39,693 nucleotides of DNA from a virus. Below, piece by piece: positions 1,019-33,802 of this stretch. The notes beneath the pieces were generated by a model. That model searched no databases and was not told the DNA's origin. It was given only the letters and a program-made list of their open reading frames with translations. Made by a program: the position numbers and the translations under genes. The stretch spans positions 1 to 39,693 of IMG/VR virus record IMGVR_UViG_3300036831_000043; one strand, given 5' to 3'. Position 1 is the first letter of the stretch. The number at the start of each line of letters is the position of its first letter.

Positions 1019-1209
1019 CGACACTGGAACAGGGCTTGCCGCCGAACGTTTTTATAACCGACGTATGGCACGAAGCCAGCCCGCCCGGCGTCACCATGCG
1101 CGTATCCAGCGGACACGGCGCGCGCATTCATGCAGGACCGCCCGCCGTGCGTCTGTCGGATGGCCGCACAATAACATTTCAGAGCAGCATTCCACCAGCA
1201 AAACGCTAG
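835..1209 (+). CDS. Hypothetical protein overlapping the previous gene
   Basis: A 124-aa ORF in a different frame that overlaps the previous gene by 184 bases. The ATG at 835 has an AGGAG 11 bases upstream, which is long spacing but usable. The first half (Pro/Gly/Asn/Ala-rich) looks low in complexity; the second half (from ATFHTNLTTL on) looks like a folded beta-rich domain with VWHEASPPGVTMRVSSGHG. No ATG offers a shorter start without overlap, so either the overlap is real or the product arises by frameshift from the upstream gene. The stop TAG is the first three bases of an 11-bp repeat unit. Function unknown. Confidence 0.6.
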   Translation: METERRTKPGRARKGLSDGNATGPAETAPDAAHNNRGNGPNPAGGTQNPDGPAWATFHTNLTTLEQGLPPNVFITDVWHEASPPGVTMRVSSGHGARIHAGPPAVRLSDGRTITFQSSIPPAKR

Positions 1210-1228
1210 CAGACTGCAACACCATAGC
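1207..1228 (+). repeat. 11-bp repeat array, 2 units
   Basis: TAGCAGACTGC followed in phase by AACACCATAGC. It matches the genome-wide unit [T/C]AGCANNNTGC and supplies the TAG stop of the preceding gene. No promoter of the usual design is visible; a terminator follows directly. Confidence 0.6.
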
Positions 1229-1230
1229 AA

Positions 1231-1253
1231 CCCGCCACCAGGCGGGTTTTTTT
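1231..1253 (+). terminator. Intrinsic terminator
   Basis: Perfect 6-bp stem CCCGCC/GGCGGG with an ACCA loop and a run of seven T. It lies between the 124-aa gene and the muramidase-like gene inside the late block, so it probably attenuates rather than ends late transcription. Confidence 0.8.
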
Positions 1254-1268
1254 ATTGGAGCGGCAACC

Positions 1269-1772
1269 GTGACGACAGCGCCCAGCCTGATAAAGATTGA
1301 ACACGCGGCAATCAACCCCGCGCTCCGGTTACTGCCCGCCGCGATGGATTCAGACCGCGCCCGCGTCATTCTGCTGGCGATTGGATTGCAGGAAAGCCAG
1401 TATCTAACCCGCGTGCAGATGGGCGGCGGCCCGGCGCGCGGTTACTGGCAGTTTGAGCGCGGAACACCCGCGACGCGCGGGGGCGTGACCGGCGTCATGC
1501 TGCACACGGCAAGCGCGGCGCACTTACTCAGCGTGTGCAATGCGCGCGGCGTGTCGTTCGATTCACTCGAAATCTGGAACGCGCTCACCTGGGACGACGT
1601 ACTGGCCGCCGCGCTCGCGCGTCTGCTGATGTGGACCGACCCGCGCACGTTGCCCGACGACGCGCCGGGCGGCTGGGATTTGTACATGCGGACCTGGCGA
1701 CCAGGCAAACCGCACCCGAACCGCTGGGCTGGGTTTTATGCCCAGGCCGTGGCAACCGTAGAACCTGACTAA
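1269..1772 (+). CDS. Lysozyme/transglycosylase-like protein
   Basis: The start is GTG at 1269, preceded by TTGGAG at good spacing just after a terminator, giving 167 aa. An N-terminal helix precedes a motif typical of lysozyme-fold lytic transglycosylases: a Glu in AIGLQESQY (about residue 41) followed by GPARGYWQFERGT (about residues 54-66), where Gly-x-x-Gln-Phe-like motifs line the substrate groove. There is no signal peptide. It lies between the portal and scaffold genes, which fits a virion-associated or lysis enzyme cleaving peptidoglycan. It is the only stand-alone endolysin candidate in the genome. The fold call is from motif reading only; the exact enzyme class is unsure. Confidence 0.6.
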   Translation: MTTAPSLIKIEHAAINPALRLLPAAMDSDRARVILLAIGLQESQYLTRVQMGGGPARGYWQFERGTPATRGGVTGVMLHTASAAHLLSVCNARGVSFDSLEIWNALTWDDVLAAALARLLMWTDPRTLPDDAPGGWDLYMRTWRPGKPHPNRWAGFYAQAVATVEPD

Positions 1773-1774
1773 CT

Positions 1775-1807
1775 GCCCGATACCCGGCGACGGATTCGGG
1801 CTTTTTT
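1775..1807 (+). terminator. Intrinsic terminator
   Basis: Stem GCCCGA (1775-1780) pairs with TCGGGC (1796-1801) and is followed by six T. It sits just upstream of the scaffold gene ribosome binding site, probably as a leaky terminator within the late operon. Confidence 0.7.
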
Positions 1808-1821
1808 GTGGAGCGTGAAAA

Positions 1822-2925: not shown

Positions 2926-2936
2926 GAGAAACAGCA

Positions 2937-3974
2937 ATGCCCGCAAATGTATTTACGACCTCGCAGGCAGTCGGCAACCGCGAAGACCTGATTAACCGGA
3001 TTTTCCGCACGTCGCCGACAGATACGCCGTTTGTGTCGCGTATTGATCGCGTCAACGCCACCGCCGTCTGGCACGAATGGCAGCGCGACACACTGCGCCC
3101 GCCGAACCCGAACAATTCGGCGCCAGAAGGTGCAGACGCAACCTTTGCGAAACAGCAGCCGACCGAACGCCTGGGCAACCGTTGCCAGATTTTCACCGAC
3201 ACGTTTTCTATCAGCGGTACACAGGATGCAGTGGACCGCGCAGGCGGTCCCGAAGTGTCGCGGCTGAAAGCAAAAAAGGCGCTGGAAATCAAAAAGGATA
3301 TTGAAGCGGCCTGCATTTCCAACCCCGTGCAACGGATCGAAGACGCCACCGGAAACCGCATGCTGCGCGGCCTGAATGGCTGGATTGCGACCAATAACAA
3401 CATGGGCGCGGGCGGCGTCGCACCCGACCCGGCCAACAATGTTGCGCCGGTCGATGGCACGAAGCGCGATTTTTCAGAAGACCAGTTCAAAGACGCCGTT
3501 TTGCAGGCGTACCAGAACGGCGGCGATGTGCGCTTTGCAATCATGGCGCCATATCTGAAACAGGTTGCGTCGGGCTTCGAAGGTAACGTAGTGCGCAACC
3601 AGGATGTAAACGGCGTCGCCCGTGTCACGCTGAACACCGCGTTTACGTTCTATGGCTCCGACTTCGGGAATATTGAAATGGTCCCGAACCGCACCATGGC
3701 AAACGGCATTGACGACAACGTTTATGGAATCGACCCGGATTACTGGGCTGTCGCCACGCTGCGCGCATTCGAAACCGAAGAACTGGCGAAGACGGGGGAT
3801 AACACCAGTTTTCTGATGGTTTCGGAACTGACGCTACAGGCTGGCGAAGAACGCAGCAGCTTTGCCATTCGTGACCTGAACGCGACCGCGCCAGCGCTGG
3901 GCAGTCTGGCGGCCCAGCGTGCCAACGCCAACGGCAACGGCGCGCCAGCCAACGGCGACACGGCCCGCGCATAA
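2937..3974 (+). CDS. Major capsid protein (DUF5309/SU10-type)
   Basis: A 345-aa protein. The N-terminus (TTSQAVGNREDLINRIFR, then SPTDTPFVSRID and WHEWQRDTL) matches the conserved start of the DUF5309 family, whose member is the coat protein of phage SU10 and which adopts the HK97 fold. The length suits the family. It builds the icosahedral head shell. It follows the scaffold gene with a strong ribosome binding site (AGGAGAAACAGCA) and is followed at once by a strong terminator, as expected for the most highly expressed late gene. The C-terminal tail is Gly/Ala/Asn-rich and probably flexible. Confidence 0.88.
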   Translation: MPANVFTTSQAVGNREDLINRIFRTSPTDTPFVSRIDRVNATAVWHEWQRDTLRPPNPNNSAPEGADATFAKQQPTERLGNRCQIFTDTFSISGTQDAVDRAGGPEVSRLKAKKALEIKKDIEAACISNPVQRIEDATGNRMLRGLNGWIATNNNMGAGGVAPDPANNVAPVDGTKRDFSEDQFKDAVLQAYQNGGDVRFAIMAPYLKQVASGFEGNVVRNQDVNGVARVTLNTAFTFYGSDFGNIEMVPNRTMANGIDDNVYGIDPDYWAVATLRAFETEELAKTGDNTSFLMVSELTLQAGEERSSFAIRDLNATAPALGSLAAQRANANGNGAPANGDTARA

Positions 3975-3995
3975 CGTCGTTATAGCCAGTGAGGA

Positions 3996-9925: not shown

Positions 9926-12607
9926 ATGGCCACACCTGACGAAATTCGCGCGTTCGCGGCGCAGTATGGACCGCTGGCCGCCGCACAGGCGCAGCGCCTG
10001 AACACCACGCCCGAAAATGTGCTTTCACAGTGGGCGCTGGAAACCGGCTATGGAAAATCCATCATTCCCGGTACAAACAACCTGGGCAACATCAAAGGCC
10101 CAGGCGTCGCGGCCACTGATAACCAGCTGGGCACGTCGGACCAGTATCGCGCGTATGACAGCCCGCAGGCGGGGGCCGCTGGTTATGGCGACTTGCTCGC
10201 GCGCAACTATCCCGGCGTGTCGGGCACGACCACGCCGCAGCAGTTCGGCCAGGCCGTGCAGGCGGGCGGCTATGCGCAAGACCCGCATTACGTCGAAAAG
10301 CTCGGCGGCGTAGCGAACACTTTGCAGCGTTATGCTAGCAATGTGCTGGGCGCCATGACGGGCAGCACGAACGCCTATGGCGACACGACGACGCCCGCCC
10401 AGCGCGCCTATTCGAACGCGGTCAATGGACCGAACCCGCCACCGTCTGCACGCGCAGGCGCAGCTGGCCAGCGCAAACCGTCCAGCGCGTCAGATGACAT
10501 TTTCGCCCCGCCACCGTGGGCCGCAAACAATGGCAACCAGACCGGCAGCGGCGGCAGCAGCGACCCCAGCGCGGCAATTTTCGCGGCGCCACCATGGGCA
10601 CAGCAGCAGGACAGCAGCGACGCGGGCGGCATGGGCTCACCAGCGGGCGCAGGCGGGGCTGGCAGCATGTCGGCAAGCCCGACACCCGCAGCCCCCGCAG
10701 CAGCGGCGCCAGCAGCCCCCAGCGGCGACGGCGCCAGCAGTTTCCTGGGCGACCTTGGGCACGCTGTCGGGCTCACTGCACGCCAGGGCGCCGAAGGGCT
10801 GGCCAGTGTCGGCGGTCTGGTAATCGACCCGGCAACGGCAGTGCTGAACAAGCTAGCCCCGTCACTGCACATTCCCACAACACAATCCAGCATGTCGCAG
10901 GCGCTGGACCGCCTGGGATTGCCGACCGAACAGACCGGAACCGAACGCGTGGTAGGCGACATAAACCGCGCCATGGCGTCGGCGGCGTCGGGCGTCGGCG
11001 TCGGGAACGTGCTGGCGGGCGCAGCGGCGCCGCTTACGGCCAGCGTCGGCCAGGCACTGGCCAGCAATGCGGGCGCGCAGGTTGCCAGCGCGGCAGGCAG
11101 TGGCGCCGGTTCGGGGCTCGCGCGTGAGGGCGGGCTGGGACCAGTCGGGCAGACTGTCGCGGGGCTTGTCGGCGCGGCCACACCAGCCGCCGCACAGGCC
11201 GCCGCCGCAGGCGCGCGGAACCTCGCGGGCGCGGGCGCCAATCTTTGGAACCGCATTACACCCGGATTCTCACCCGAAGCGGCGCAGCAGCAGGCCGCCG
11301 ACCGCGTTTTGCAGGGAATCCAGGGCGACGTAAGCGCGCGCAATGCCGCCGCCGCGAACACGGGTAATGGCCTGCTGGATGCGCTATCGGGCAATGACGA
11401 AGCATTGCGCATTGCGCGCAACATGCAGAATGCACAGCCAATCGTGCCCGGCTCGATGCCGACCGCCGCCGAAGTCGCGGAAAGCCCGACCATTTCGGCT
11501 ATCCAGAAGGCCGCAGGCAACCGGCCAGAATTCAAGATTCCGCTAACCGAACAGCAGGAAGTCAGCAACGCCGCCCGGCTGGGCCAGTTGCAGAACCTGT
11601 CGGGCGCGTCGTCGGGCGGTTCCCAGGCGCTGATGGATGCGCGCAACGCGATAACCGACCCGCTTTATGCAAGTGCCGATGAAACGGTTGTGCCAATCAG
11701 CGACACCATGCAATCGTTAATGAACCGCCCCAGCATGCAGGAAGCCATAGGGCGCGCCCGTGCGCTGGCCGCAGAGGAAAGCCGACCGTTTGATTTGACC
11801 GACGAAGCGGCGACGATCAGCGGGCGCGACGCGCACCAGATCAAAAAGGGCTTTGACGACATTCTTTACGATTCGGGCCGCACGCTGACGCCGACCCAGC
11901 GCGCCGCGATCACGAACACGCAGCAGCAGTTCCTGGGCGACCTCGAAACGCAGATTCCGGCCTATGGCCAGGCGCGCCAGGCGTTCGCAGCGGCCAGCCC
12001 GCAGATTAATTCAACGGCCATGGCCGAAGACCTGTTAGGCGACCTGAATCAAGGCGCAATGAACAGCACCGACCCGCAGATAACGTTTAACGGTTTCAAG
12101 TCAAAACTTGCCAGCTATCGGCGGCAGCAGAATTTCCCGCTGGACCCGGAAATAGACCAGGCACTCACCAACATACAGACCGATTTGCAGCGCGCCACGC
12201 GTGTTAATGCAATCAAGGCACAGGGCGCCGACACGTTTTACAACTCGGCGGCGGATAGCTGGTTTTCCAACATGACCGGCAAACAGAGCGTGCTGGGCCA
12301 GGCGGTTGCGTCGGGACTGGGCGCAGCGGGGGCCGGTTCCATGTTCGGGCCAGCGGGCGCAGCAGCGGGCGCAGTTGCAGGGCCAGTCGTCAGCGCACTG
12401 ACCGGGCGCGGCGAATCGGCCATTAACCGCGAAATAGCGCGGCTACTGCTGAACCCGAACGAGTTTGGTACGGCGCTGGAGCGTCAAGCCCTCGCCCAGC
12501 GTAGCAACATCAACCCAGCCGCTGGCGCTGTCGCACCACTCGCGCAACGGCTCGCCCGGCCCGCCGTGCTGGGCGGTCTGCTGGGGGCGCTCGGCGGCTC
12601 GCGCTGA
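9926..12607 (+). CDS. Virion-associated glucosaminidase fused to ejection protein
   Basis: An 893-aa protein. Residues 1 to about 145 form a FlgJ/GH73-like N-acetylglucosaminidase domain: the presumed catalytic Glu in SQWALETGYGKS (about residue 39), the signature NNLGNIK (51-57) and YRAYDSPQAGAAGYGDLL. A Pro/Ala/Ser-rich linker with repeats of FAPPPWA / FAAPPWA follows, then long Ala/Gly helical regions and a Gly/Ala hydrophobic stretch near the C-terminus (GLGAAGAGSMFGPAGAAAG) that may contact membrane. The likely role is local digestion of peptidoglycan during DNA ejection, as with T7 gp16. It carries two 11-bp repeat units at 10325-10346. The catalytic call is from motifs only. Confidence 0.75.
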   Translation: MATPDEIRAFAAQYGPLAAAQAQRLNTTPENVLSQWALETGYGKSIIPGTNNLGNIKGPGVAATDNQLGTSDQYRAYDSPQAGAAGYGDLLARNYPGVSGTTTPQQFGQAVQAGGYAQDPHYVEKLGGVANTLQRYASNVLGAMTGSTNAYGDTTTPAQRAYSNAVNGPNPPPSARAGAAGQRKPSSASDDIFAPPPWAANNGNQTGSGGSSDPSAAIFAAPPWAQQQDSSDAGGMGSPAGAGGAGSMSASPTPAAPAAAAPAAPSGDGASSFLGDLGHAVGLTARQGAEGLASVGGLVIDPATAVLNKLAPSLHIPTTQSSMSQALDRLGLPTEQTGTERVVGDINRAMASAASGVGVGNVLAGAAAPLTASVGQALASNAGAQVASAAGSGAGSGLAREGGLGPVGQTVAGLVGAATPAAAQAAAAGARNLAGAGANLWNRITPGFSPEAAQQQAADRVLQGIQGDVSARNAAAANTGNGLLDALSGNDEALRIARNMQNAQPIVPGSMPTAAEVAESPTISAIQKAAGNRPEFKIPLTEQQEVSNAARLGQLQNLSGASSGGSQALMDARNAITDPLYASADETVVPISDTMQSLMNRPSMQEAIGRARALAAEESRPFDLTDEAATISGRDAHQIKKGFDDILYDSGRTLTPTQRAAITNTQQQFLGDLETQIPAYGQARQAFAAASPQINSTAMAEDLLGDLNQGAMNSTDPQITFNGFKSKLASYRRQQNFPLDPEIDQALTNIQTDLQRATRVNAIKAQGADTFYNSAADSWFSNMTGKQSVLGQAVASGLGAAGAGSMFGPAGAAAGAVAGPVVSALTGRGESAINREIARLLLNPNEFGTALERQALAQRSNINPAAGAVAPLAQRLARPAVLGGLLGALGGSR
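10325..10346 (+). repeat. 11-bp repeat units inside a structural gene, 2 units
   Basis: CAGCGTTATGC then TAGCAATGTGC in exact 11-bp phase, both perfect matches to the consensus, with TGCTAGCA at the junction. They fall within the glucosaminidase gene, just after its catalytic domain. A further TAGCG-type unit lies about 14 bases upstream. This location cannot be an ordinary promoter-proximal operator. Confidence 0.55.
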
Positions 12608-12734: not shown

Positions 12735-12800
12735 TAGCACTCTGCCAGCATTACGCTGTCGTATTGATATCATTTCAGCAGCACACAGTTAGCACAATGC
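12735..12800 (+). repeat. 11-bp repeat array, 6 units
   Basis: Six consecutive 11-base periods upstream of the fibre gene. The best units are TAGCACTCTGC (12735), CAGCATTACGC (12746), CAGCACACAGT (12779) and TAGCACAATGC (12790); the two central ones are degenerate. One more unit (TAGCACAGTGA, 12808) follows out of phase. No TTGCAC-16-TACACT promoter is seen here. Confidence 0.75.
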
Positions 12801-12827
12801 TGCACTATAGCACAGTGAGGCTTTACC

Positions 12828-13616
12828 ATGCCTGTACCGCAAAGCTGGGACGATATTTTTACGAACCCGGCGCAGAACAGCCCGCAGGGTTCGGAACCAA
12901 TCGGCACGCAGGCCGACGACTACATACGGCAGGCGTTCGCCTTTGCAAAACAGTTACATGATGGCTGGGTTGCCGCAGATGGTTCTGTGCCCTGGACGGC
13001 TAACCAGAGCGCGGGCGCGTTCCAGCTTAAAAATCTGGCCATGGCCACCGACGCGGGCGACGCCGTAAGTCTGGCGTATCTGAACCGCCAGTTTCCGCGC
13101 GGAACCATTGTTATGTGGAACGGTACGCTGGGCACGATTCCCACTGGCTGGGTCGTCTGTGATGGCGGCAACGGCACGCCGAACCTGTTAAACCGCGTGC
13201 CATGGGGCGCCGCCGCTGATAGCCAGGTCAACACCTATGGCGGTTTCAATCTGCAAACACTGACGCCGTCACAGATGCCCGTGCATACGCACGGTTACGC
13301 CGACAACGGCCACGCACACAGCATTAGCGATTATGGCCACGTCCACCCCGTAACGGACTATGGCCACGTCCACACATTCCCGGCTGGCATTCCGGGCGCC
13401 GTCGTCGGCAACCAGCTGAACCTGTCGGGCGCGCCGAACGTGCAGGCGCTGACGCAGACCAACCCCGCCGCAAGCAATATTGCTGTCGCAATCGCGCAAA
13501 GCAATATCGTCGTCAATGGTTCGGGAATCGGCATTGCCATTCAGAACGCAGGCGGCGGCCAGGCATTCGACAACCGCCCGGCGTTCGCGTCGGTCTGGTT
13601 CATTATGAAGACCTAA
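12828..13616 (+). CDS. Tail fibre/collar-type receptor protein with HxH motifs
   Basis: A 262-aa protein. The segment FPRGTIVMWNGTLGTIPTGW followed by VVCDGGNGTPNLLNRVPWG is the phage tail-collar pattern (T4 gp12-like and microcystin-dependent-protein families). Then come HTHGY and tandem GHAH / GHVH motifs, with DYGHVH duplicated. In T4-like fibre tips, His-x-His pairs bind iron along a trimeric needle. It ends NRPAFASVWFIMKT, the usual last strand of such proteins. The N-terminal 70 residues probably attach to the tail. Likely role: receptor-binding fibre or spike tip. The 220-bp gap before it holds an 11-bp repeat array, so it may have its own control. Confidence 0.75.
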   Translation: MPVPQSWDDIFTNPAQNSPQGSEPIGTQADDYIRQAFAFAKQLHDGWVAADGSVPWTANQSAGAFQLKNLAMATDAGDAVSLAYLNRQFPRGTIVMWNGTLGTIPTGWVVCDGGNGTPNLLNRVPWGAAADSQVNTYGGFNLQTLTPSQMPVHTHGYADNGHAHSISDYGHVHPVTDYGHVHTFPAGIPGAVVGNQLNLSGAPNVQALTQTNPAASNIAVAIAQSNIVVNGSGIGIAIQNAGGGQAFDNRPAFASVWFIMKT

Positions 13617-15242: not shown

Positions 15243-15425
15243 ATGAAAACCGTTCTGGCCGCGCTCGCAACCCTCGCGCTAACCAGCTGCACGTTTATCT
15301 ATATCCGTGGCAACGCAAACAGCCTGGACGACGTAGGCGGGCATGGCGGCGGTCTGGAATTCTCGCAGGACCGCAAACCCCTGGCGGACCTCATACACCC
15401 GGCCACGCCCGCCACGCACCATTAG
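15243..15425 (+). CDS. Small lipoprotein, possible paralogue
   Basis: A 60-aa protein. MKTVLAALATLALTSCTFIY gives a signal peptide and lipobox LTSC; the mature part is about 45 residues, Gly/His-rich. It lies 3 bases after the other lipoprotein with nearly the same first five residues and closes the late operon. Its stop TAG overlaps the TAA stop of the convergent gene (bases 15422-15425), and no terminator is visible between them. Function unknown. Confidence 0.6.
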   Translation: MKTVLAALATLALTSCTFIYIRGNANSLDDVGGHGGGLEFSQDRKPLADLIHPATPATHH

Positions 15426-16480: not shown

Positions 16481-16532
16481 GGTTGTTTCCTCCTTTGGGC
16501 GGCGTCGTCGTAAGTAATAGGCCATGGTTAAA

Positions 16533-16560
16533 AGTGCAGCAGAGTGCTAGCGAAGTGCAA
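16533..16560 (-). promoter_or_regulatory. Array-embedded promoter for the HTH gene
   Basis: On the reverse strand: TTGCAC (16555-16560), a 16-bp spacer containing TGCTAGC, and a weak -10 TGCACT (16533-16538). Same design as the promoters at 18172, 21195, 29468 and 30118. Confidence 0.45.
16537..16558 (+). repeat. 11-bp repeat array, 2 units
   Basis: CAGCAGAGTGC then TAGCGAAGTGC in phase. The second unit encodes the end and the stop of the small membrane protein gene on the reverse strand. Confidence 0.7.
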
Positions 16561-16693
16561 ACCAGAGAACGACAAAGATAACCGGCAGGAAAACCGCATA
16601 AATCACAGCGAACGTGCGCCGCAGACGGCGTTTCTGTCTATCCATTTCTTCCATACTCATAAAGGGCACTGGATGAAATTCTCTGTGTTTCAT
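16547..16693 (-). CDS. Small single-pass membrane protein
   Basis: A 48-aa protein starting at the ATG at 16693 after AGGTGAGCCC; longer upstream starts lack this site. A charged N-terminal half (MEEMDRQKRRLRRT) is followed by a membrane segment FAVIYAVFLPVIFVVLWFAL at the very C-terminus. It is a tail-anchored or N-in single-pass protein. Proteins of this size in phage early operons often target host envelope processes or act as holin-like factors; nothing more specific can be said. Its last codons lie inside an 11-bp repeat unit. Confidence 0.65.
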   Translation of the reverse strand: MKHREFHPVPFMSMEEMDRQKRRLRRTFAVIYAVFLPVIFVVLWFALR

Positions 16694-18131: not shown

Positions 18132-18197
18132 CAGCAGGCCGCTAGCATTCTGCTAGCGACCCGACAGCACAAATATAGCATTATTGCAGCACTTCGC
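18132..18197 (+). repeat. 11-bp repeat array, 6 units
   Basis: Six units in exact 11-bp phase, including TAGCATTCTGC (18143), CAGCACAAATA (18165), TAGCATTATTG (18176) and CAGCACTTCGC (18187). It spans the gap between recT and the next leftward gene and runs into the end of the recT coding sequence. Confidence 0.85.
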
Positions 18198-20322: not shown

Positions 20323-20351
20323 AGTATAAAACGGAGTGTTGCAAAGTGCTA
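20323..20351 (-). promoter_or_regulatory. Promoter for exonuclease-recT
   Basis: On the reverse strand: -10 TATACT (20323-20328), a 17-bp spacer, -35 TAGCAC (20346-20351) formed by a repeat unit. The array covers the -35 region, as expected for a repressible promoter. Confidence 0.5.
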
Positions 20352-20393
20352 GCACTTTTTCAGCATAGCGCTAGCACAGTGCAACATTACAGC
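20339..20393 (+). repeat. 11-bp repeat array, 5 units
   Basis: Five units in exact phase, including TAGCACTTTTT (20350), CAGCATAGCGC (20361) and TAGCACAGTGC (20372). It lies between two leftward genes and overlaps the stop of the upstream one. Confidence 0.85.
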
Positions 20394-20764
20394 AGAGGAT
20401 GGCGGGCGTTAAAGAGGGCGACGAACGCGGTTAGGGCGTGGCCGCCGCGACCCTCGCAACCGTCCAGCGTGGCGACGAATTCGCCCCCCTGTTCGGTTAG
20501 CTCGATACCCTCGCGCCGCGCATATTCGCGGGCGTCGTTGTCGCTACAGTGCCAGGTGCGCGCCAGCTGGGCGACGTGTTCAATATCGGCGCCGCGTGCA
20601 AAGGATTCAATCAGGATTCGCCATGCGCCGCGCCGGTCGGACGGTTCGACCGGCCACCAGCATTTAACCAGGTCCGAATTTTCGAAGTCGGTAATCAGGC
20701 CCGGCGCGGCCCGTTTATAGATGACCGCGCCATTAGCGTGCAGATAATAGTAACCGGCAATCAT
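20387..20764 (-). CDS. Hypothetical early protein
   Basis: A 125-aa protein. The ATG at 20764 follows TGGAG at 7 bases, so the longer upstream frame is rejected. It begins MIAGYYYLHANGAVIYKRA and has a central WPVEPSDRRGAWRILIES, which resembles short phage proteins of unknown role in recombination clusters. No catalytic motif seen. Part of the early leftward block. Confidence 0.65.
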   Translation of the reverse strand: MIAGYYYLHANGAVIYKRAAPGLITDFENSDLVKCWWPVEPSDRRGAWRILIESFARGADIEHVAQLARTWHCSDNDAREYARREGIELTEQGGEFVATLDGCEGRGGHALTAFVALFNARHPLL

Positions 20765-21143: not shown

Positions 21144-21231
21144 TGCTGATGCGCTAGCAGTGCGCTAGCAATGGGTTATCGAAGTGACAGCAGAATGATA
21201 ACACAGTGCTAGCAAAGTGCAACACTTTCAG
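21144..21231 (+). repeat. 11-bp repeat array, 8 units (longest)
   Basis: Eight consecutive 11-bp periods. Clear units include TAGCAGTGCGC (21155), CAGCAGAATGA (21188), TAACACAGTGC (21199) and TAGCAAAGTGC (21210). The flanking unit AACACTTTCAG (21221) recurs as AACACTTGCAG at 26139 and AACACTTTTCG at 29494. Confidence 0.9.
21195..21222 (-). promoter_or_regulatory. Main leftward early promoter, array-embedded
   Basis: On the reverse strand: -35 TTGCAC (21217-21222), a 16-bp spacer holding TGCTAGCA, -10 TATCAT (21195-21200). The operator array covers the whole promoter and extends downstream toward the first gene. Confidence 0.65.
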
Positions 21232-21332
21232 GCGAACAGACCGCCGCATGGTGAAACGGTATATGCGCCCAGGTATAGCGAAAGCGGAAATAATTGCAAG
21301 AAAAATATTCAGCTTAAATTCAGCTGAAACTA

Positions 21333-24470: not shown

Positions 24471-24733
24471 ATGACAACCCGAAGTGCCCGCACTGCGGCA
24501 AGGATAACGACGGCCATGCAATATTTGGCAGTCTGCTACACGTACCGCACGACGGCGACGTGTCGCTATGCGCCTATTGCGGCGGCTGTAGCGTCTTTGA
24601 GGGCGGCCAGATACGCACGCCGACCGACGACGAACAGCGCGAGCTAGACGCCGACCCGCGCTTACGCCGCGCTCGCGTAGTGCTGGCGATTATCAGCATG
24701 AGAAACGCGATTGAATGGGATACAAAACACTAG
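24467..24733 (+). CDS. Zinc-ribbon protein
   Basis: An 88-aa protein. It starts at ATG 24467, overlapping the previous stop. CPHCGKDNDG and CAYCGGCSVF give a two-knuckle zinc ribbon separated by about 27 residues, followed by an acidic helical tail. Phage zinc ribbons often bind DNA, RNA or host polymerase parts; the role here is unknown. The stop TAG is the first three bases of an 11-bp repeat unit. Confidence 0.65.
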   Translation: MNDNPKCPHCGKDNDGHAIFGSLLHVPHDGDVSLCAYCGGCSVFEGGQIRTPTDDEQRELDADPRLRRARVVLAIISMRNAIEWDTKH

Positions 24734-24752
24734 CATTGTGCTAGCATATCGC
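24731..24752 (+). repeat. 11-bp repeat array, 2 units
   Basis: TAGCATTGTGC then TAGCATATCGC in phase, followed by an offset CAGCACGCG. It lies directly upstream of the promoter at 24763. Confidence 0.75.
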
Positions 24753-24762
24753 AGCACGCGAT

Positions 24763-24899: not shown

Positions 24900-25265
24900 A
24901 TGCGATTGTTTGCGGACGTGCTGCGCGATATGCGCGGTGGATTAAGTCATGAAGAACTCAGTACAGCACTCCAGCAGCTGGTGCGCCAGTGCTGCGAAAC
25001 GGGCCGTGGTGGCGAGATTACCTATACGCTATCCATCAAGCCCACAAAGAGCGCAGAAGCCGTCGAAATCGCCGACAAAATCGGCCTGAAAGAACCGCGT
25101 AACGAACGCGGCTCAAGCCTGTTTTTCGTTACGTCGGGCTTCGACCTCACCCGCAACAATCCGCGCCAGGAACGTCTGGACTTACGCGAAGTGCCAGCAC
25201 CAGCTGCGCCGCGCGACGTGCCGCAGGATAGCCCCGCCCCGCGTGAAGTCGGGGGCGCGCAATGA
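24900..25265 (+). CDS. Hypothetical partner of DUF2303 gene
   Basis: A 121-aa protein with GGAGGCGCT before the ATG. A helical N-terminus (HEELSTALQQLVRQCCETGR) precedes a beta segment GGEITYTLSIKPTKSAEAVE. Short genes of this type are often seen directly upstream of DUF2303 genes in phages. The C-terminus is Pro-rich and disordered. It overlaps the next gene by ATGA; function unknown. Confidence 0.68.
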   Translation: MRLFADVLRDMRGGLSHEELSTALQQLVRQCCETGRGGEITYTLSIKPTKSAEAVEIADKIGLKEPRNERGSSLFFVTSGFDLTRNNPRQERLDLREVPAPAAPRDVPQDSPAPREVGGAQ

Positions 25266-26110
25266 CCATCGACCGTGGCGCAGTACAGGAACTGATGGCG
25301 CTAAGTGTTTCGAGTCTGGAAGCACGCCGCGCGCTGGAACAGGGCATACCCTACGCGCTGGTCCCGCCAGAGTGGGACGTTAAAGCACTCGAAAACCTGC
25401 TGGAACACCCGACGCGCGTGCGCGGTACGACCAAGCTCGGCGACGCCGACAGCTTCTGCGCGTGGATCAACGAACGCAAGTTGCCTATCACGCGCGTGTA
25501 TGCCGTGAATAACCACGCGGACGGCGTGCAGTTCGTCGGCGTGCTGGATGACACACTAAGCGCAGAGGCGCCGCAGTGGGCCGAATGGCGGGCCGCGTAT
25601 CAGCCGCTTGTGTCGCCTGAATGGCAGATATGGAGCGGCATGAGCGGCAAGCGCGGCGCGCAGAAAGACTTTGCCGAATTCGTTGAAAGCAACGTGGACG
25701 ACGTTTTTAGCAGTGGCGAACATGAGCCCGTGGGCGCCGTTCTGCTGGAACTCGCGCAGGTACTGCACGCGACCATCAAGGCCGAATTTTCCAGCGCTGT
25801 GCGGCTGTCGAATGGCACGACACAGCTGCGCTACGCCGAAACCATGCAGGCCACTGGCGGCAGCGGTTCGCTGGAAGTGCCAGAAATGTTTTTCCTGTCG
25901 ATTCCGGTATTCATGGGCGGCCCACACTACAAAGTCGCAGCGCGTCTGCGCTATCGCGTGCAGGGCACGTCGTTACAGATTGGTTATGACCTGGTACGCC
26001 CGCATAAGGTAGTGGAAAAGGCCGCCGACGACATTATTGCGGTAATCACCGACAAGACCGGCATTACGCCCTATATGGGCGTGCCAGCAGGAACGCGGAC
26101 CATTCTTTAG
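25262..26110 (+). CDS. DUF2303 (YfdQ-like) protein
   Basis: A 282-aa protein. The sequence fits DUF2303: ADSFCAWINERKL near residue 65, FVGVLDD and WRAAYQPLVSPEWQIWSG, KDFAEFVESNVDDVF and the C-terminal VPEMFFLSIPVFMGG with YKVAARLRYRV. The length is typical. The family is widespread in phages and prophages near recombination or replication genes, and its biochemical role is not established. The stop TAG is shared with a repeat unit. Confidence 0.85.
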   Translation: MTIDRGAVQELMALSVSSLEARRALEQGIPYALVPPEWDVKALENLLEHPTRVRGTTKLGDADSFCAWINERKLPITRVYAVNNHADGVQFVGVLDDTLSAEAPQWAEWRAAYQPLVSPEWQIWSGMSGKRGAQKDFAEFVESNVDDVFSSGEHEPVGAVLLELAQVLHATIKAEFSSAVRLSNGTTQLRYAETMQATGGSGSLEVPEMFFLSIPVFMGGPHYKVAARLRYRVQGTSLQIGYDLVRPHKVVEKAADDIIAVITDKTGITPYMGVPAGTRTIL

Positions 26111-26149
26111 CAGTGCTAGCAGAATGGCGACATAGTGCAACACTTGCAG
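26108..26149 (+). repeat. 11-bp repeat array, 4 units
   Basis: A shortened first unit (TAGCAGTGC), then TAGCAGAATGG (26117), CGACATAGTGC (26128) and AACACTTGCAG (26139). It fills the gap between the DUF2303 gene and the next gene. Confidence 0.75.
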
Positions 26150-26158
26150 GGGGCTGTA

Positions 26159-26842
26159 ATGAACGCGAAACGCAAGGCCAAAGTACAGGAAACCGGCGAC
26201 GACCAGCTAACCGACGACGAAAACGCCGCCGCCAGCGCGCAGGGGCTGGACGCCGACAAGACCGGCGACCCGCTGGCCGCGAACGCTGAACCGCTCGCAG
26301 CTGACGCCCAGCGACCGGGCCAGGCGCCGAACCGCGACGACCCGACAGACGCCAATTTTCGTGCGTCGCAGGGCACTGGCGCGGGCACGGCTAGCGGTAC
26401 GTGGAAGCCAGCGGAACCAACGGCTGTTATGGACGGCCCAGACATACCGCAGATTCCGCTAGCCGAAGCGAAACCGGGCTATGAGACCGTCAACAGCTCG
26501 CGCGTGCCCGGCATGGGCGACCCGCAAAATGGGGTTGTGCTGGATGACTGGACGCAAAGCCCGATTGCCTGGGTTAATCCGCAGTGGCCAACGCACCAGC
26601 CGAACGACGGCCCGAACGCGGTTGCCGTGCCCGACCCTGACGCATTGCCAGAGGGCACCGACCCGGACGACGAAGCGCAGGCGCAGGCGCTGGCCCATGC
26701 ACCCGGCGCGCCGGGAAAAGACGTCGGCCCGCTATCGTTCGATGACGCGACCAGCGCAACAGGCGACACGACAGAGGGCGGCAAATACAGCGCCAACATT
26801 TTCCCGCCGAACGACCAGGCGAACGACCAGACGAACGAGTAA
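26159..26842 (+). CDS. Acidic, probably disordered protein
   Basis: A 227-aa protein starting at ATG 26159 after GCAGGGGGCTGTA. It is rich in Asp, Ala, Pro, Gly and Asn throughout, with few hydrophobic clusters and no recognisable fold except a central part around VNSSRVPGMGDPQNGVVLDD and WTQSPIAWVNPQWPTHQP. Likely unstructured; it could be a decoy or a scaffold-like protein. Function unknown. Confidence 0.62.
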   Translation: MNAKRKAKVQETGDDQLTDDENAAASAQGLDADKTGDPLAANAEPLAADAQRPGQAPNRDDPTDANFRASQGTGAGTASGTWKPAEPTAVMDGPDIPQIPLAEAKPGYETVNSSRVPGMGDPQNGVVLDDWTQSPIAWVNPQWPTHQPNDGPNAVAVPDPDALPEGTDPDDEAQAQALAHAPGAPGKDVGPLSFDDATSATGDTTEGGKYSANIFPPNDQANDQTNE

Positions 26843-27165: not shown

Positions 27166-27567
27166 ATGCGCGACCTCTCACACCTGAACCGCTGGCGCGT
27201 GCCATTGCATGGCCAGCTGGGCGACGCACACAATGGAGCGTTCCAGCTGCGCGTGCGCCCGTCACCCGTGCGCGTGTTCGTCATTTCCAGCGACGGCGGC
27301 GGCTGGGATCATGTCAGCGTCAGCGTAGCGAACGAACGCCGCTTGCCGACGTGGGCCGAAATGCACCACGTAAAGCGGCTGTTTTTTCACGACGACGAAG
27401 CGGTAATGCAGCTGCACCCGCCCGCGTCGGAATATGTCAACAATGCCGAAGTGCTGCATATGTGGCGACCGCAGGAACTGGATTTGCCATTACCGCCGCG
27501 CTGGATGGTCGGATTACCGGGCGTCGCGCCCGCCGACATGCCGCGCATAATGGCAGCACTTCGCTAG
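27166..27567 (+). CDS. DUF7694-like phage protein
   Basis: A 133-aa protein. The segment GGGWDHVSVSVANERRLPTW, then EMHHVKRLFFHDDEAVMQLH and PPASEYVNN with a later HMWRP, matches a widespread phage family of unknown function that I know as DUF7694, in which a conserved Glu/His/Lys set and the LHPP motif suggest a small enzyme or binding fold. It ends at a repeat array (stop TAG) facing a convergent gene. Confidence 0.7.
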   Translation: MRDLSHLNRWRVPLHGQLGDAHNGAFQLRVRPSPVRVFVISSDGGGWDHVSVSVANERRLPTWAEMHHVKRLFFHDDEAVMQLHPPASEYVNNAEVLHMWRPQELDLPLPPRWMVGLPGVAPADMPRIMAALR

Positions 27568-27586
27568 CGTTCTGCTAGTCGGGGCA
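27554..27586 (+). repeat. 11-bp repeat array between convergent stops, 3 units
   Basis: CAGCACTTCGC, TAGCGTTCTGC and a degenerate TAGTCGGGGCA in phase. Both convergent genes use TAG stops made by GCTAG sequences of this array (27565-27567 forward, 27575-27577 reverse). No gene starts here, so this array is not a promoter operator. Confidence 0.75.
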
Positions 27587-28420: not shown

Positions 28421-28452
28421 TTGCGAAACGCTGCACAATGATAGCAGAACGC
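28421..28452 (+). repeat. 11-bp repeat array, 3 units
   Basis: TTGCGAAACGC, a 10-base unit TGCACAATGA, then TAGCAGAACGC. It lies just upstream of the DUF29 gene. The reverse strand has a TATCAT -10-like hexamer at 28438-28443 but no clear -35. Confidence 0.55.
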
Positions 28453-28472
28453 CCGCACTGGGCGGGCGACGG

Positions 28473-29440: not shown

Positions 29441-29467
29441 TTTTCGCCCTCGCTAACCAGTAAAGAC

Positions 29468-29495
29468 AGTGTAGCAGAATGCTAGCAAAGTGCAA
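29468..29495 (-). promoter_or_regulatory. Array-embedded promoter
   Basis: On the reverse strand: -35 TTGCAC (29490-29495), 16-bp spacer with TGCTAGCA, -10 TACACT (29468-29473). Closest match to the common promoter design, with a gene start at the right distance. Confidence 0.7.
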
Positions 29496-29504
29496 CACTT
29501 TTCG
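29472..29504 (+). repeat. 11-bp repeat array, 3 units
   Basis: TAGCAGAATGC (29472), TAGCAAAGTGC (29483) and AACACTTTTCG (29494), all in phase. A clean example of the basic operator. Confidence 0.85.
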
Positions 29505-29534: not shown

Positions 29535-29587
29535 AGAAAGCGCCCTGGCGGGCACCTGAGAGGCCGATACATACGGCCCGCACAGTG

Positions 29588-29598
29588 TAGCAGTTAGC
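29588..29598 (+). repeat. Single 11-bp repeat unit
   Basis: TAGCAGTTAGC, preceded by CACAGTG. The reverse strand reads TACACT as at other promoters, but no -35 is seen. It overlaps the end of the 75-aa gene. Confidence 0.45.
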
Positions 29599-29821
29599 GC
29601 CAGGTGCGCGCAGGCGTGGCGAACGGCTCGCGTACATACGGATTAGGCAAACCCGGATCAACCCGCACCGTAGAACCGGCTGGCATGACCTCGATTGCGT
29701 CCAGGCAGTAGCCCGCAAAATAGTTGCGTTCCAGCCAGTCGCCGTCTGGCTTCGAAGACTGGGCATTTTCGGCGCAGCAGGTACGCATGGGCGACGTTAA
29801 CGTGTCGTGAAAATGAATCAT
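29594..29821 (-). CDS. Hypothetical protein
   Basis: A 75-aa protein starting at the ATG at 29821 after CTGGAGCAAACAACC. Contains TCCAENA and a later GYCLDAIEVMPAG, so possibly metal-binding, and LPNPYVREPF. Family unknown. It lies downstream of the 72-aa gene in the leftward block from 30.1 kb. Confidence 0.62.
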   Translation of the reverse strand: MIHFHDTLTSPMRTCCAENAQSSKPDGDWLERNYFAGYCLDAIEVMPAGSTVRVDPGLPNPYVREPFATPARTWR

Positions 29822-30082: not shown

Positions 30083-30117
30083 TCTGCGCCCCTTCTGTTC
30101 GTTGATTCAGTAAACGA

Positions 30118-30145
30118 AGTGTAGCATAACAGCAGCAAAGTGCTA
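30118..30145 (-). promoter_or_regulatory. Leftward promoter of the divergent pair
   Basis: On the reverse strand: -10 TACACT (30118-30123), 16-bp spacer, -35 TAGCAC (30140-30145). The operator units cover it completely. Confidence 0.6.
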
Positions 30146-30198
30146 GCACTTTTTAATGTGTTCAGAGTGCTGTCATAACGCTAGCGCTGTGCTACACT
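30122..30198. repeat. 11-bp repeat array with dyad, 7 periods (par locus)
   Basis: Seven 11-bp periods between two divergent genes. The left part reads forward (TAGCATAACAG, CAGCAAAGTGC, TAGCACTTTTT) and the right part reads as the reverse complement (AACGCTAGCGC, TGTGCTACACT), so orientation changes near 30160. AGTGTAGCA (30118-30126) and TGCTACACT (30190-30198) form a perfect inverted repeat at the edges. Best candidate for the centromere and par operator. Confidence 0.85.
30171..30198 (+). promoter_or_regulatory. Promoter of parA-RHH operon
   Basis: TGTCAT (30171-30176), a 16-bp spacer carrying CGCTAGCG, and TACACT (30193-30198), with AGGGGCAGGA before the parA ATG at 30222. The operator covers it, which suits autoregulation by the RHH protein. 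Confidence 0.6.
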
Positions 30199-30221
30199 GA
30201 AAAAAACGAATAGGGGCAGGA

Positions 30222-30878
30222 ATGACAATCTATGTTGTCGCCCACACCAAGGGCGGAACGGGCAAGACGACGATTAGCGTCCAGACTTCGCTGGCGCTGT
30301 CACTGCTGGAGCGGCGCGTGTGGTATATCGACGGCGACAACCAGCAGACCGGTATGAAATCCATGACCATGCGCGAAACGCTGGGCAGGCGCGAACCCAT
30401 ACCGGCCAGCGCTTACCCGGACCATGCGCAGATGCGCAGCCAGGCCCGCGCGCAGGCCCGGCTGTTTGATGACACTGTGATAGATTGCGGCGGCGGCGAC
30501 AGCAAAACGCTACGCGTCGCCCTGCTGGTGGCAGACGTGCTTATCGCGCCCATGAATGTTGGAATCTATGAACTTTGGGCGCTGGAAGACCTGGAAAACG
30601 TGGTGCATGAGATCAACGCAGCGCGCGAAACCCCGCTGGTTTGCCGCTCACTGCTGAACTGTGCCGACCCGACCGACACGCCCGACAACCGCGAATGCCG
30701 CGACTACGCGCAGGAATCGGAACTGTTCGGCAACGTGTTCACCACACAGATTGCACGCCGTAAGGCTATCGGGCGCGCGAGTGCGCGCGGCCTGTCGGTT
30801 CAGGAATACACGCCACGCGACGCTAGCGCAGTGGCAGAAATTGACGGCTACATTAACGAACTTTTGAAGGTGCATTAA
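30222..30878 (+). CDS. parA: ParA-family partition ATPase (small, type Ib-like)
   Basis: A 218-aa protein. The deviant Walker A motif HTKGGTGKTT has signature Lys10 and P-loop Lys15; the A' motif is YIDGDNQQT (about 36-43) and the Walker B region is DTVIDCGGGDSK (about 84-95), followed by DVLIAPM. The protein starts directly at the ATPase fold and lacks the N-terminal HTH of type Ia ParA. Type Ib ParA proteins of this size (such as ParF) form ATP-dependent gradients on the nucleoid and move DNA bound by a small partner; operon control is left to the partner. The next gene starts directly after the stop and encodes an RHH protein. An alternative is a ParA-like helper of another process. Confidence 0.88.
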   Translation: MTIYVVAHTKGGTGKTTISVQTSLALSLLERRVWYIDGDNQQTGMKSMTMRETLGRREPIPASAYPDHAQMRSQARAQARLFDDTVIDCGGGDSKTLRVALLVADVLIAPMNVGIYELWALEDLENVVHEINAARETPLVCRSLLNCADPTDTPDNRECRDYAQESELFGNVFTTQIARRKAIGRASARGLSVQEYTPRDASAVAEIDGYINELLKVH

Positions 30879-31154
30879 ATGAACGCAACACGAAAAACCA
30901 GTGAAACCGCAACCGTTTTGCGTGCAGGCCGCAGCAAGGCTACAGTATCGAACGACGCGGCAAAGACGGCGCTTAAAACCGGCGTGAAGAAAACCGCCGC
31001 TGGCAACGCGCGCAAGCGCGAACGCGTCATGGTGAATACACCCGTGGACATGATGCCGCTGATTCGCGCCGACGCAGAGGAAACCGGCGTAACCATGTCT
31101 ACCTGGTATGTTCTGGCCGCGAAAGAAAAACTGGCAAAGGCTAACGGAAAATGA
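30879..31154 (+). CDS. Ribbon-helix-helix protein, putative centromere-binding partner
   Basis: A 91-aa protein starting at the base after the parA stop. Residues 1-47 form a basic, Ala/Thr/Lys/Arg-rich and probably flexible tail. Residues about 48-88 fit the RHH fold: strand ERVMVNTP, helix MMPLIRADAEETG, turn GVT, helix MSTWYVLAAKEKLAKAN. This layout equals that of ParG, omega and other type Ib partition proteins, where the strand pair of each dimer binds a short direct repeat and the flexible tail stimulates the ATPase. I infer that it binds the 11-bp repeats. No experiment or search supports this beyond motif and context. Confidence 0.72.
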   Translation: MNATRKTSETATVLRAGRSKATVSNDAAKTALKTGVKKTAAGNARKRERVMVNTPVDMMPLIRADAEETGVTMSTWYVLAAKEKLAKANGK

Positions 31155-31618
31155 AACCCGGCGCGCTGTTCGATTGGCTGTACGACCGCATAGGCAACCC
31201 ATACGACGCGCGCTGGACCGCCGCCCACTGCGCCAGCATGGGCGTAACGCAGGCGGCCCGTGTAGTGGGCATGCTGGCGCCCGCCGAAGCCGTCCAGGAT
31301 TACGTGCATACCGTCATGCGCGGCGAACGCGCGCTGGAGTGGTGGAAACAGGGTTTTTCCGCTGTCGGCTCACTGATGCCCATGATTTTTATGATCGCAG
31401 GCCAGTACCTGAACGGCTCCATAGGCTGGTGGATTTTTGCGGCCCAATGCGTCTGGCTGTTTCTGTGGACGTTCGTCGGTCTGCCCTGGCTGTTCTACAC
31501 GATAACCGCCCAGCAGCTGGAGCTACGCGCGAACGCGCTTACGGCCATGTGTGAAAGGAGCAACGCCACCCAGGAACAGTTAAACCGTGCGGCGCAGCGT
31601 CTGGACATGGGCGAATAA
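31151..31618 (+). CDS. Membrane protein in par operon
   Basis: A 155-aa protein. Two hydrophobic spans, about residues 74-92 (GSLMPMIFMIAGQYLNG) and 95-120 (WWIFAAQCVWLFLWTFVGLP), are linked by a tight turn, giving a hairpin membrane protein with both ends on the same side. The C-terminal helix is charged (LELRANALTAMCERSNATQE). It overlaps the RHH gene by ATGA. Possible roles: holin, or an envelope-altering protein of the prophage state; no family recognised. Confidence 0.68.
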   Translation: MKPGALFDWLYDRIGNPYDARWTAAHCASMGVTQAARVVGMLAPAEAVQDYVHTVMRGERALEWWKQGFSAVGSLMPMIFMIAGQYLNGSIGWWIFAAQCVWLFLWTFVGLPWLFYTITAQQLELRANALTAMCERSNATQEQLNRAAQRLDMGE

Positions 31619-31818
31619 TGGACCATCAAAACGACGAAACACGCCGCGTAGCCAAGGTAATGCACGCGCTCGCGCAGATTGAAGCGCTCGTAAATAATAA
31701 CGGTCTGCCCATGTACCAGCTACGCCCGCGCGTGCGCGAACAGCTGGACAATGCACGCCGCGCGCTTCTGCTGGACGACGACGGCAACCAGCGCAGCCCG
31801 AAAGGCCCGACCGCATGA
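31618..31818 (+). CDS. Hypothetical protein
   Basis: A 66-aa helical protein (RRVAKVMHALAQIEALVNNN, VREQLDNARRALLLDDD). It overlaps both neighbours (TAATG and ATGA), so it is tightly coupled in the par operon. Family unknown. Confidence 0.65.
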   Translation: MDHQNDETRRVAKVMHALAQIEALVNNNGLPMYQLRPRVREQLDNARRALLLDDDGNQRSPKGPTA

Positions 31819-32435
31819 AACAGCAACCCGACCTGAACGCACTGACGCCCGCGCAGCGCGAAAACGCGCGTAATAAGCACGTCATAACGGAAATCCTGAA
31901 CCAGCGACACTGGCCAAAACTGAACGCCCGCGCCCGCGATGCAATCGAAAATCCGGCGCTGGACGACGCCGACAAGACGCGCGCCCTGTACGCGGCAACC
32001 GCGCCGCTGGAAAAGGATATGGGCGCGTTTTCGGCGTGTCGCAAGGGCTGTTCGCATTGTTGTCATATCGCCGTGGCCGTGAATCAGGCCGAAGCGCAGA
32101 TAATCGGCGAACATATCGGCCAGCTACCCGAACACCCGGCAAACCGTGGCATGGAAGGGCGCGACGGCTTCGCCGAATTCGTGCCGCTGGGATACGAAAA
32201 CCCGTGCCCGTTTCTGGTGGATAACCAGTGCAGCATTTACGACGTTCGGCCTAGCGCGTGCCGTCTGCATTTCAGCCTGGACATTAGCCCCGATATCTGC
32301 AAACTGGACGAAGCGCGCCCCGTGCTGTTATACGGCCATATCAATATCGACATGCTGGGCGTTTATGCAGCGGGCGGCCCGCATGATTGCGTGATAGCCG
32401 ACATACGCGAATTTTTTCCGAAGGGTAAAACATGA
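31815..32435 (+). CDS. YkgJ-type Cys-cluster protein
   Basis: A 206-aa protein. The segment FSACRKGCSHCCHIAV has four Cys in the CxxxCxxCC pattern (Cys75, 79, 82, 83), and CPFLVDNQCSIYDVRPSACR (Cys131, 139, 149) completes the YkgJ/Fliy family motif, which is thought to bind zinc or an iron centre. An N-terminal helical domain of about 70 residues precedes it. The biochemical role of the family is not settled. Members appear in phages, and here the gene belongs to the par operon (ATGA overlaps on both sides). Confidence 0.82.
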   Translation: MKQQPDLNALTPAQRENARNKHVITEILNQRHWPKLNARARDAIENPALDDADKTRALYAATAPLEKDMGAFSACRKGCSHCCHIAVAVNQAEAQIIGEHIGQLPEHPANRGMEGRDGFAEFVPLGYENPCPFLVDNQCSIYDVRPSACRLHFSLDISPDICKLDEARPVLLYGHINIDMLGVYAAGGPHDCVIADIREFFPKGKT

Positions 32436-33145
32436 CAGCCAAAACCCGGAAACAGCAGGAAACCATTCTGACCGGCGCAGCTGTCGCGGCCCGCTCCATG
32501 GCAGGCGTGAAAATCTGCGGCGCGTTCGGCATGGATGACGCCGAAACGCTGGTTTTCGTCACGGTCGGCGGCGACGATTCAGGCATTACGCCGCGCCAGC
32601 TGGGCCGCGCGCTGGAGCGCGTGGGAACCAGCTTACAGGGCAAACAGAACACCGACGCAGACGTAACCATGATTCGCCGGAACGCCAACGGCGACGACGT
32701 GTTACCGCTCGATACGCCGCTGGGCGACATGGGCGCCGTGGGCGCCAGAGCCCGCACCAGCAGCGCCAGCAAACCCGGCGCCGAACCGACGATAACCGGA
32801 TTGCAGATTGTCGCCCTGCTGAAACTCGCCGAAAAGGTAGGCCGCAACCTGGGCCGCGCGCTGGCCTATAAAGACGTGCTGGGCAGCGCAGAAAAGCGGC
32901 TGAAAGAACAGGAAGAAATTTTAAAGACCGCCAAAGAGGGCAGCGACGCCAGCGCTATCTGCATGGGCGAAATCATGGCGTACCGCGTTCTGCTGGATGC
33001 GTTCGACGGCGCCATAGATTACTTTACCAGTGAGGGTTCCGGCGCCATGGAAACCCTGTCGCGCTATGTGGTAGACGAAAACATACCCGGCGTGGAAGAC
33101 GCCGCCGAAGCGCTGGTAAAAGGCAGCGAAGACGCGCCGGGCTAG
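32432..33145 (+). CDS. Hypothetical protein with coiled-coil
   Basis: A 237-aa protein. An Ala-rich N-terminal half precedes a helical region AEKRLKEQEEILKTAKEGSD that could form a coiled coil and a C-terminal part AMETLSRYVVDENIPGVEDA. No catalytic motif. Family unknown; last part of the overlapping cistron series from parA. Confidence 0.65.
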   Translation: MTAKTRKQQETILTGAAVAARSMAGVKICGAFGMDDAETLVFVTVGGDDSGITPRQLGRALERVGTSLQGKQNTDADVTMIRRNANGDDVLPLDTPLGDMGAVGARARTSSASKPGAEPTITGLQIVALLKLAEKVGRNLGRALAYKDVLGSAEKRLKEQEEILKTAKEGSDASAICMGEIMAYRVLLDAFDGAIDYFTSEGSGAMETLSRYVVDENIPGVEDAAEALVKGSEDAPG

Positions 33146-33147
33146 TC

Positions 33148-33351
33148 ATGCGCCGCGTGTTGCAGGTTAGCACCCGGAACTGGGTTGCTGGCGCAGTGTG
33201 GGAGAATGACGGCGGCGGCTGGCACTGTGTACGGGCCGCCCCGATTATTGGCTGGATGCTGAAATGCAGCGCCATAGAAGCGCGCGACCGGCTGGAACTC
33301 AGCCGCTATAAATACGAATGGTTTTACGCCGACGCCGTGCCACCTGACTGA
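33148..33351 (+). CDS. Small hypothetical protein
   Basis: A 67-aa protein starting 2 bases after the previous stop, with aromatic-rich beta segments (VSTRNWVAGAVWENDGGGWH). No family recognised. Weak ribosome site, probably coupled to the gene before. Confidence 0.58.
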   Translation: MRRVLQVSTRNWVAGAVWENDGGGWHCVRAAPIIGWMLKCSAIEARDRLELSRYKYEWFYADAVPPD

Positions 33352-33363
33352 TTAGGGGGCTGT

Positions 33364-33783
33364 ATGCGCCGTGACGATTGCACTATTGCCGACGACCTCG
33401 CAGACGCGGATTTGCACGCGCTTTGCTTGCGCTGGGCCGAATGGCACAGGGAACACGGGCTACTGGTCCCGCCGATCCCGAAAAATATCCTGGCCCGATA
33501 TCAGCCGTCCAAAGTGCGGCCCGCGCCCTATATCGGCTTTTCCCCCGCGCTGTCGCTATTCAACACGGCCATAAATGCCCAGGACGACAGCCCCGCCAAA
33601 AACGCGTTCCTGCTGTTCTACCTGGTCCCGGCGCGCAGCGTAAAGGAATCAGCCGCCGCCCTCGAAATCAGCCGCGACGGCTTTTACAGGCGCGTTCGGC
33701 GGTTCCGGCGCAAAGCCTATAACACGGCGCTGGCGCTGGAGAAATCCGCCGAATCGGCCCGCGTTCTGGCAGCGGAATGCTAG
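33364..33783 (+). CDS. HTH antiterminator-like late regulator
   Basis: A 139-aa protein. TAGGGGGCTGT precedes the ATG. The C-terminal part, FLLFYLVPARSVKESAAALE, then ISRDGFYRRVRRFRRKAYNT, is an HTH of the sigma-factor-like type seen in phage Q antitermination proteins, with a strongly basic recognition helix. The N-terminal part (LRWAEWHREHGLL) also fits that family layout. The gene lies directly before the late leader, which contains a terminator, the arrangement of Q, pR' and tR' in lambdoid phages. A transcription activator of the late promoter is the alternative. Its stop lies in a repeat unit. Confidence 0.62.
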   Translation: MRRDDCTIADDLADADLHALCLRWAEWHREHGLLVPPIPKNILARYQPSKVRPAPYIGFSPALSLFNTAINAQDDSPAKNAFLLFYLVPARSVKESAAALEISRDGFYRRVRRFRRKAYNTALALEKSAESARVLAAEC

Positions 33784-33802
33784 CATTGTGCTAGCGTTAT
33801 GA
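33770..33802 (+). repeat. 11-bp repeat array, 3 units
   Basis: CAGCGGAATGC (33770), TAGCATTGTGC (33781) and TAGCGTTATGA (33792) in phase. The first unit lies in the end of the antiterminator-like gene, the stop comes from the second, and the array stands just before the late leader. Confidence 0.75.

Follow-up and report, generated by a model that had tools for sequence, protein, structure and literature searches.

Phased 11-bp palindrome arrays across a phage genome as candidate operator and centromere sites of a ParA-associated ribbon-helix-helix protein

The viral record IMGVR_UViG_3300036831_000043 (39,693 nucleotides, analysed at its full length and referred to here as the window) carries short tandem arrays of an 11-bp unit at some 15 places, most of them between genes. 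We find that these arrays are real and that they are conserved, as binding sites would be. They are probably the sites of the phage's own ribbon-helix-helix (RHH) protein, which is encoded with a ParA-like ATPase in what appears to be a type Ib ParA-RHH partition system, and they would represent an operator and centromere array that has been copied across the genome of a plasmid prophage. From comparisons of sequence we infer that the protein binds and represses, that the system partitions DNA and that the prophage exists as a plasmid; the RHH partner of ParA is the most likely binder of the arrays, and promoter repression combined with partition is their most likely role.

Structure and conservation of the arrays

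Each unit consists of the 8-bp palindrome TGCTAGCA and a 3-bp spacer of the form NWN, with a period of exactly 11 bp, and the aligned units read TAGCA-nWn-TGC. The original prediction had described a tandem 11-bp unit; its period holds, while the unit is better written as palindrome plus spacer. The middle base of the spacer is A or T in all 43 of the window's own units that were used to train a position weight matrix (PWM), and in 62 of the 65 units of two relatives (G001 and G006) that were left out of the training. The motif is present at all 15 places first listed, and matches to the strict form YAGCANNNTGC number 14 on the + strand; when both strands are counted there are 24, where shuffled genomes give 4.0 ± 2.0. 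At exactly 11 bp the PWM finds 16-21 pairs, depending on the threshold, compared to 0-0.08 in 100 dinucleotide shuffles, and at any other distance, the multiples 22 and 33 excepted, it finds 0-2. The predicted phasing is thus borne out, and phased arrays are essentially absent from shuffled sequence of the same dinucleotide composition. A motif-free autocorrelation over the whole genome was swamped by codon periodicity.

By a relaxed count there are about 47 in-register units in 17 runs, and about 15-17 clusters overall; the figure of over 50 units proposed earlier is reached only by admitting very degenerate copies. Of the eight units claimed for array G (21144-21231) and the six for array E (18132-18197), 6 and 5, respectively, score in register. 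With a threshold of 8, 22 of the 30 phased units are noncoding in a genome that is only 6% noncoding, so the proposed preference for regulatory gaps mostly stands, with further arrays that sit within a single gene (10.3 kb) or overlap the ends of genes (27.55 and 33.78 kb). A dimeric protein, reading a palindrome at each helical turn, would be the natural partner of the arrays.

The two relatives, which were reached through a motif scan of viral contigs, have about 75% nucleotide identity to the window, are syntenic with it, and both encode the phage's ParA (75 and 71%) and its RHH protein. The window-trained PWM detects 9 and 14 phased 11-bp pairs in them. Arrays are retained in the relatives at almost every counterpart of the window's array-bearing junctions, and the strongest of these pairs fall almost without exception at such junctions. 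Array N at the parA promoter is conserved in both relatives, as is array B, which lies within a gene, and array J, located where two convergent genes end, is kept in one and lost from the other. The palindrome is conserved across the relatives, and the spacers and the numbers of units vary. Arrays at recT-yqaJ are present in both relatives and absent from the window, which implies that arrays turn over. None of the remaining contigs from the motif scan has a ParA match and most have only one or two sites, which are probably due to chance; in one 14-kb contig (G010) the sites belong to repeats within the coding sequence for an unrelated protein. In five other phages (KS14, FLC5, PARCL1pr, Vibrio K303 and G022) the window's PWM finds no phased pairs, and the motifs of these phages had to be found separately.

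Promoter register and array positions

In front of several operons, array and promoter coincide, in the form TGTTGCA-nnn-TGCTAGCA-nnn-TGCTAnnnT with the extended -10 element in register. In oriented alignments, TGTTGCA-nnn-TGCTAGCA-nnn-TGnTAnnnT stands upstream of a gene: all three genomes have this pattern at arrays L and G, and two have it on the leftward side of array N. We used a test of this register in place of a canonical sigma-70 scan: over the three genomes, the extended -10 TGnTAnnnT lies downstream of a palindrome core at 11 bp in 17 cases, at 22 bp in 5, and at 17 and 33 bp in one case each. Three successive units would make up such a promoter, with TGTTGCA as its -35-like element, then the spacer, then TGCTAnnnT as the extended -10, so that a bound array would cover it.

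Many sites lie in promoters. Array G precedes a leftward operon that starts at 21129 and has an extended -10 embedded in it, array L (29461-29504) is the leftward promoter TGTTGCActtTGCTAGCAttcTGCTACACT, and array K (28431-28453), upstream of a DUF29 gene on the - strand, overlaps the extended -10 TGCTATCAT. Array N (30118-30198) spans the parA promoter and a divergent promoter and is the candidate centromere. Array D (16537-16562) is found upstream of the gene at 15422-16525 (-), array E upstream of the gene at 17503-18111 (-) and across the 3' end of recT, and array F (20339-20398) upstream of the gene for a YqaJ-type nuclease (-); array M (29578-29600) is weak, with about one unit. Other sites lie within operons, between genes or at gene ends. 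Array A (1185-1228) falls within the run of structural genes and adjoins a terminator-like hairpin, array B (10325-10346) is inside the gene at 9926-12607, and array C (12735-12818) is upstream of the gene at 12828-13616 and reaches its ribosome-binding region. Array H (24731-24760) lies between rightward genes, array I (26108-26142) between the genes at 25262-26110 and 26135-26842, and array J at 27554-27580. Array O (33770-33803) extends across the 3' end of the gene at 33364-33783, ahead of the structural gene run. We also observed that in the region 33364-33970 this conserved gene, whose 139-aa product has no family match, is followed by array O and then by a TCTACAAAA..TATTAT-like element, which is conserved, and a hairpin resembling a terminator, a layout that recalls the lambdoid Q/late-promoter arrangement.

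The parA-RHH operon and its distant relatives

The ParA-like Walker ATPase (218 aa; 30222-30878, +) is matched in Pfam (MipZ, 1.8e-12; AAA_31; CbiA), in PHROGs (phrog_164, ParA-like partition protein, 4.1e-31) and in NCBIfam (ParA_partition, 2.5e-27, which is under the curated cut-off). Three features agree with a type Ib system: the ATPase domain starts at residue 1-5 with no N-terminal DNA-binding domain, a gene for a predicted RHH protein begins directly after the parA stop codon, and a repeat array overlies the parA promoter. The ParB-like RHH protein (91 aa; 30879-31154, +), the likely binder of all arrays, was assigned through AlphaFold and Foldseek. The model has an extended segment at residues 47-55 and helices at 56-69 and 73-88, with pLDDT 81-88 in these elements, and the best Foldseek matches in the PDB are the RHH proteins Arc, AmrZ and CopG. 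The predicted strand carries R49, M51 and N53, which do not vary among the three phages. The N-terminal 45 residues are modelled with low confidence as partly helical and include the conserved ETAxxLRAGR. The orthologue in one relative weakly matches a BrnA antitoxin model, and searches of viral contigs and the PDB for proteins closely related to the RHH protein gave none. A weak RHH-profile match (E 4e-4) was seen in Burkholderia phage Menos (34263-34559), an integrating P2-like phage with no ParA detected, and was set aside, as no arrays or ParA are known alongside it. Directly 3' of the RHH gene, 31151-31618 encodes a conserved protein with hydrophobic segments and no family match.

Relatives of the window's ParA are found in phage-plasmids and plasmids, and a ParA scan of genome contigs returned distant relatives only (Oxalobacter). 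We computed the autocorrelation of the 160 bp upstream of parA in 17 diverse ParA relatives, all of them outside the window's phage group (phage-plasmids such as KS14, and plasmids), and obtained a peak at 11 bp with a combined z of 7.7, the next being 22 bp with 3.6. The gene after parA is annotated as RHH in several plasmid records. Similar to the window, KS14, FLC5, FLC10 and Advenella plasmid 24p have a homologous ParA (~37-42% identity) followed by an RHH gene, with palindromes spaced by 11 bp upstream of parA, but the palindromes themselves differ, being TGATATCA in KS14 and TGAATATTCA in the Advenella plasmid. In KS14, FLC5 and FLC10 phased copies are confined to parA and the gap between parA and the RHH gene; in the Advenella plasmid a few copies of its palindrome are dispersed (at 17, 19795, 21880, 22566 and 22646), some in 11-bp pairs. 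The predicted recognition strand is ISLTI-like where the cores are GATATC/AATATT and RVMVN where the core is GCTAGC, as here, a correlation that was judged visually from a small number of groups. Experiments have shown KS14 to be a plasmid prophage (PMC3091744).

The phage genome is circular and ~39.5 kb long: the two ends of the window (1-186 and 39508-39693) overlap by 186 bp with three mismatches, and the portal gene is divided across this join. The phage is podovirus-like, with a large terminase subunit (35750-37159) and a major head protein (2937-3974), and along with the ParA-like ATPase it encodes RecT and a YqaJ-type nuclease. Searches of the window for a tyrosine integrase (Phage_integrase) and a serine resolvase (Resolvase) gave no match, and partition genes in a genome with neither match are what is expected of a plasmid prophage (phage-plasmid). 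An HTH_3 repressor search of the window also gave no match, other HTH families not having been searched genome-wide. Within the long divergent gap at 21.23-21.58 kb, two ATTCAGCTGAA-like copies (21307-21329) may mark a replication origin.

A partition protein as candidate genome-wide repressor

We propose that each RHH dimer would read one TGCTAGCA palindrome, and that adjacent dimers, one helical turn (11 bp) apart on the same DNA face, would bind cooperatively. Array N at the parA promoter would serve both as autoregulatory operator and as the centromere moved by ParA, and copies of the array would have been placed on many other promoters and retained by selection. Arrays in long transcription units (A, B, C and J) may block elongating polymerase or serve as additional centromere sites. 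The ParB-like RHH protein would in this way be both genome-wide repressor and roadblock, with silencing and inheritance of the plasmid prophage hanging on one protein. A further step, which we offer tentatively as somewhat short of an even call, is that the partition protein has turned immunity repressor, its arrays being centromeres, core-promoter operators and roadblocks, and that it governs lysogeny, superinfection immunity and inheritance in a temperate phage without a CI-type repressor.

Elements of this arrangement are known from separate systems. RHH ParB proteins bind promoter-overlapping repeats and repress, and pSM19035 has six such sites (PMC9499535, PMC4498918). The window resembles pSM19035 delta-omega (type Ib) in its small ParA without a DNA-binding domain, its small RHH ParB and its short contiguous repeat arrays over promoters, several of which are repressed in pSM19035 (PMC9499535, PMC4498918). 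The repeats there are 7-bp non-palindromic heptads (WATCACW) at six sites (three promoters, duplicated), whereas the units here are 11 bp with an 8-bp palindrome, in ~15 clusters over the whole phage and in part within transcription units. The stoperators of mycobacteriophage L5 and cluster A are many repressor sites across the genome, found both in promoters and in the short intergenic gaps of operons (PMC9283540), and the window's sites are likewise spread over a phage genome, many in promoters and within operons. Stoperators are single, asymmetric 13-bp sites of fixed orientation relative to transcription, and their repressor is a monomer whose HTH is N-terminal, in contrast to the palindromic phased arrays and RHH candidate found here. 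The window therefore joins the promoter-overlapping repeats of RHH ParB proteins with genome-wide sites of the cluster A style. Dimers of the P22 Arc repressor, which shares the RHH fold predicted here, bind subsites about one helical turn apart, but Arc has one operator and no ParA partner. The repeats of R1 parC have a length of 11 bp. In the type II system of R1, the RHH protein ParR is reported to bind ten short direct repeats that flank the promoter (a study cited in PMC5016525); the motor there is the actin-like ParM, not ParA.

The original prediction of phased, genome-wide sites on one DNA face with an RHH candidate is favoured by the shuffles, the orthologous conservation, the promoter register and the 11-bp period at parA-RHH operons. 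Its statement that no gene explains the arrays is correct as to coding, but the parA-RHH operon is their likely explanation. Several points weigh against assigning the arrays to the RHH protein as promoter operators. The 91-aa protein has no family match in Pfam, PHROGs or NCBIfam, its AlphaFold alignment is three sequences deep, and its Foldseek matches, Arc included, are not significant (best E 0.44). Of the 6 positions of the sigma-70 consensus, the -35-like TTGCAC agrees at only 3, and when the -35 is scored canonically a plain sigma-70 scan recovers almost none of the array promoters. Arrays B and J are sited where a promoter is not expected, several of the ParA relatives have z near zero or negative and show no 11-bp period, and the comparison of orthologous junctions is descriptive, some anchors having been picked after the arrays were seen.

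Since the RHH assignment comes from structure alone and the phage has many conserved small proteins without a known domain, one of these could be an unrecognised repressor or activator that binds the arrays, the parA-RHH operon being merely one of its targets. We consider this unlikely, because distant parA-RHH operons, carried by unrelated replicons, are preceded by the same 11-bp palindromic layout and the type of palindrome shifts along with the predicted RHH recognition strand. The sites could also be mainly a dispersed centromere or DNA-compaction system, to which the arrays within a gene and at convergent gene ends would point, with promoter overlap arising because noncoding gaps, the least constrained positions, tolerate sites without damage to genes. 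Sites placed at random in gaps would not come to have extended -10 elements exactly 11 or 22 bp from the palindromes, as is seen in three genomes, which makes this explanation improbable.

The weak -35 elements, and the reach of the arrays over the promoter as is possible for activator sites, would suit a phage-specific promoter or activator element whose occupancy turns genes on, a modified RNA polymerase being one conceivable means. However, units that span both the -35 and the -10 favour occlusion, and a scan that covered part of the genes turned up neither a phage RNA polymerase nor a sigma factor, so that we regard activation as quite improbable. Tandem arrays can grow by slippage, and non-functional repeats might have spread in this way or as a small mobile repeat; there is no sign of slippage here, copies have only the palindrome in common while their spacers vary, and the array positions are kept across ~25% nucleotide divergence, which leaves this origin with scarcely any likelihood.

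Partition and prophage repression are usually handled by separate proteins, and the comparative evidence points to a single small RHH protein that handles both throughout this phage. If this is true, plasmid incompatibility and phage immunity would be joined in one molecule. The 11-bp palindromic rule offers a simple route to the centromeres of many ParA-RHH plasmids and phage-plasmids, and the paired changes in recognition strand and palindrome provide a set of RHH-DNA specificities to test.

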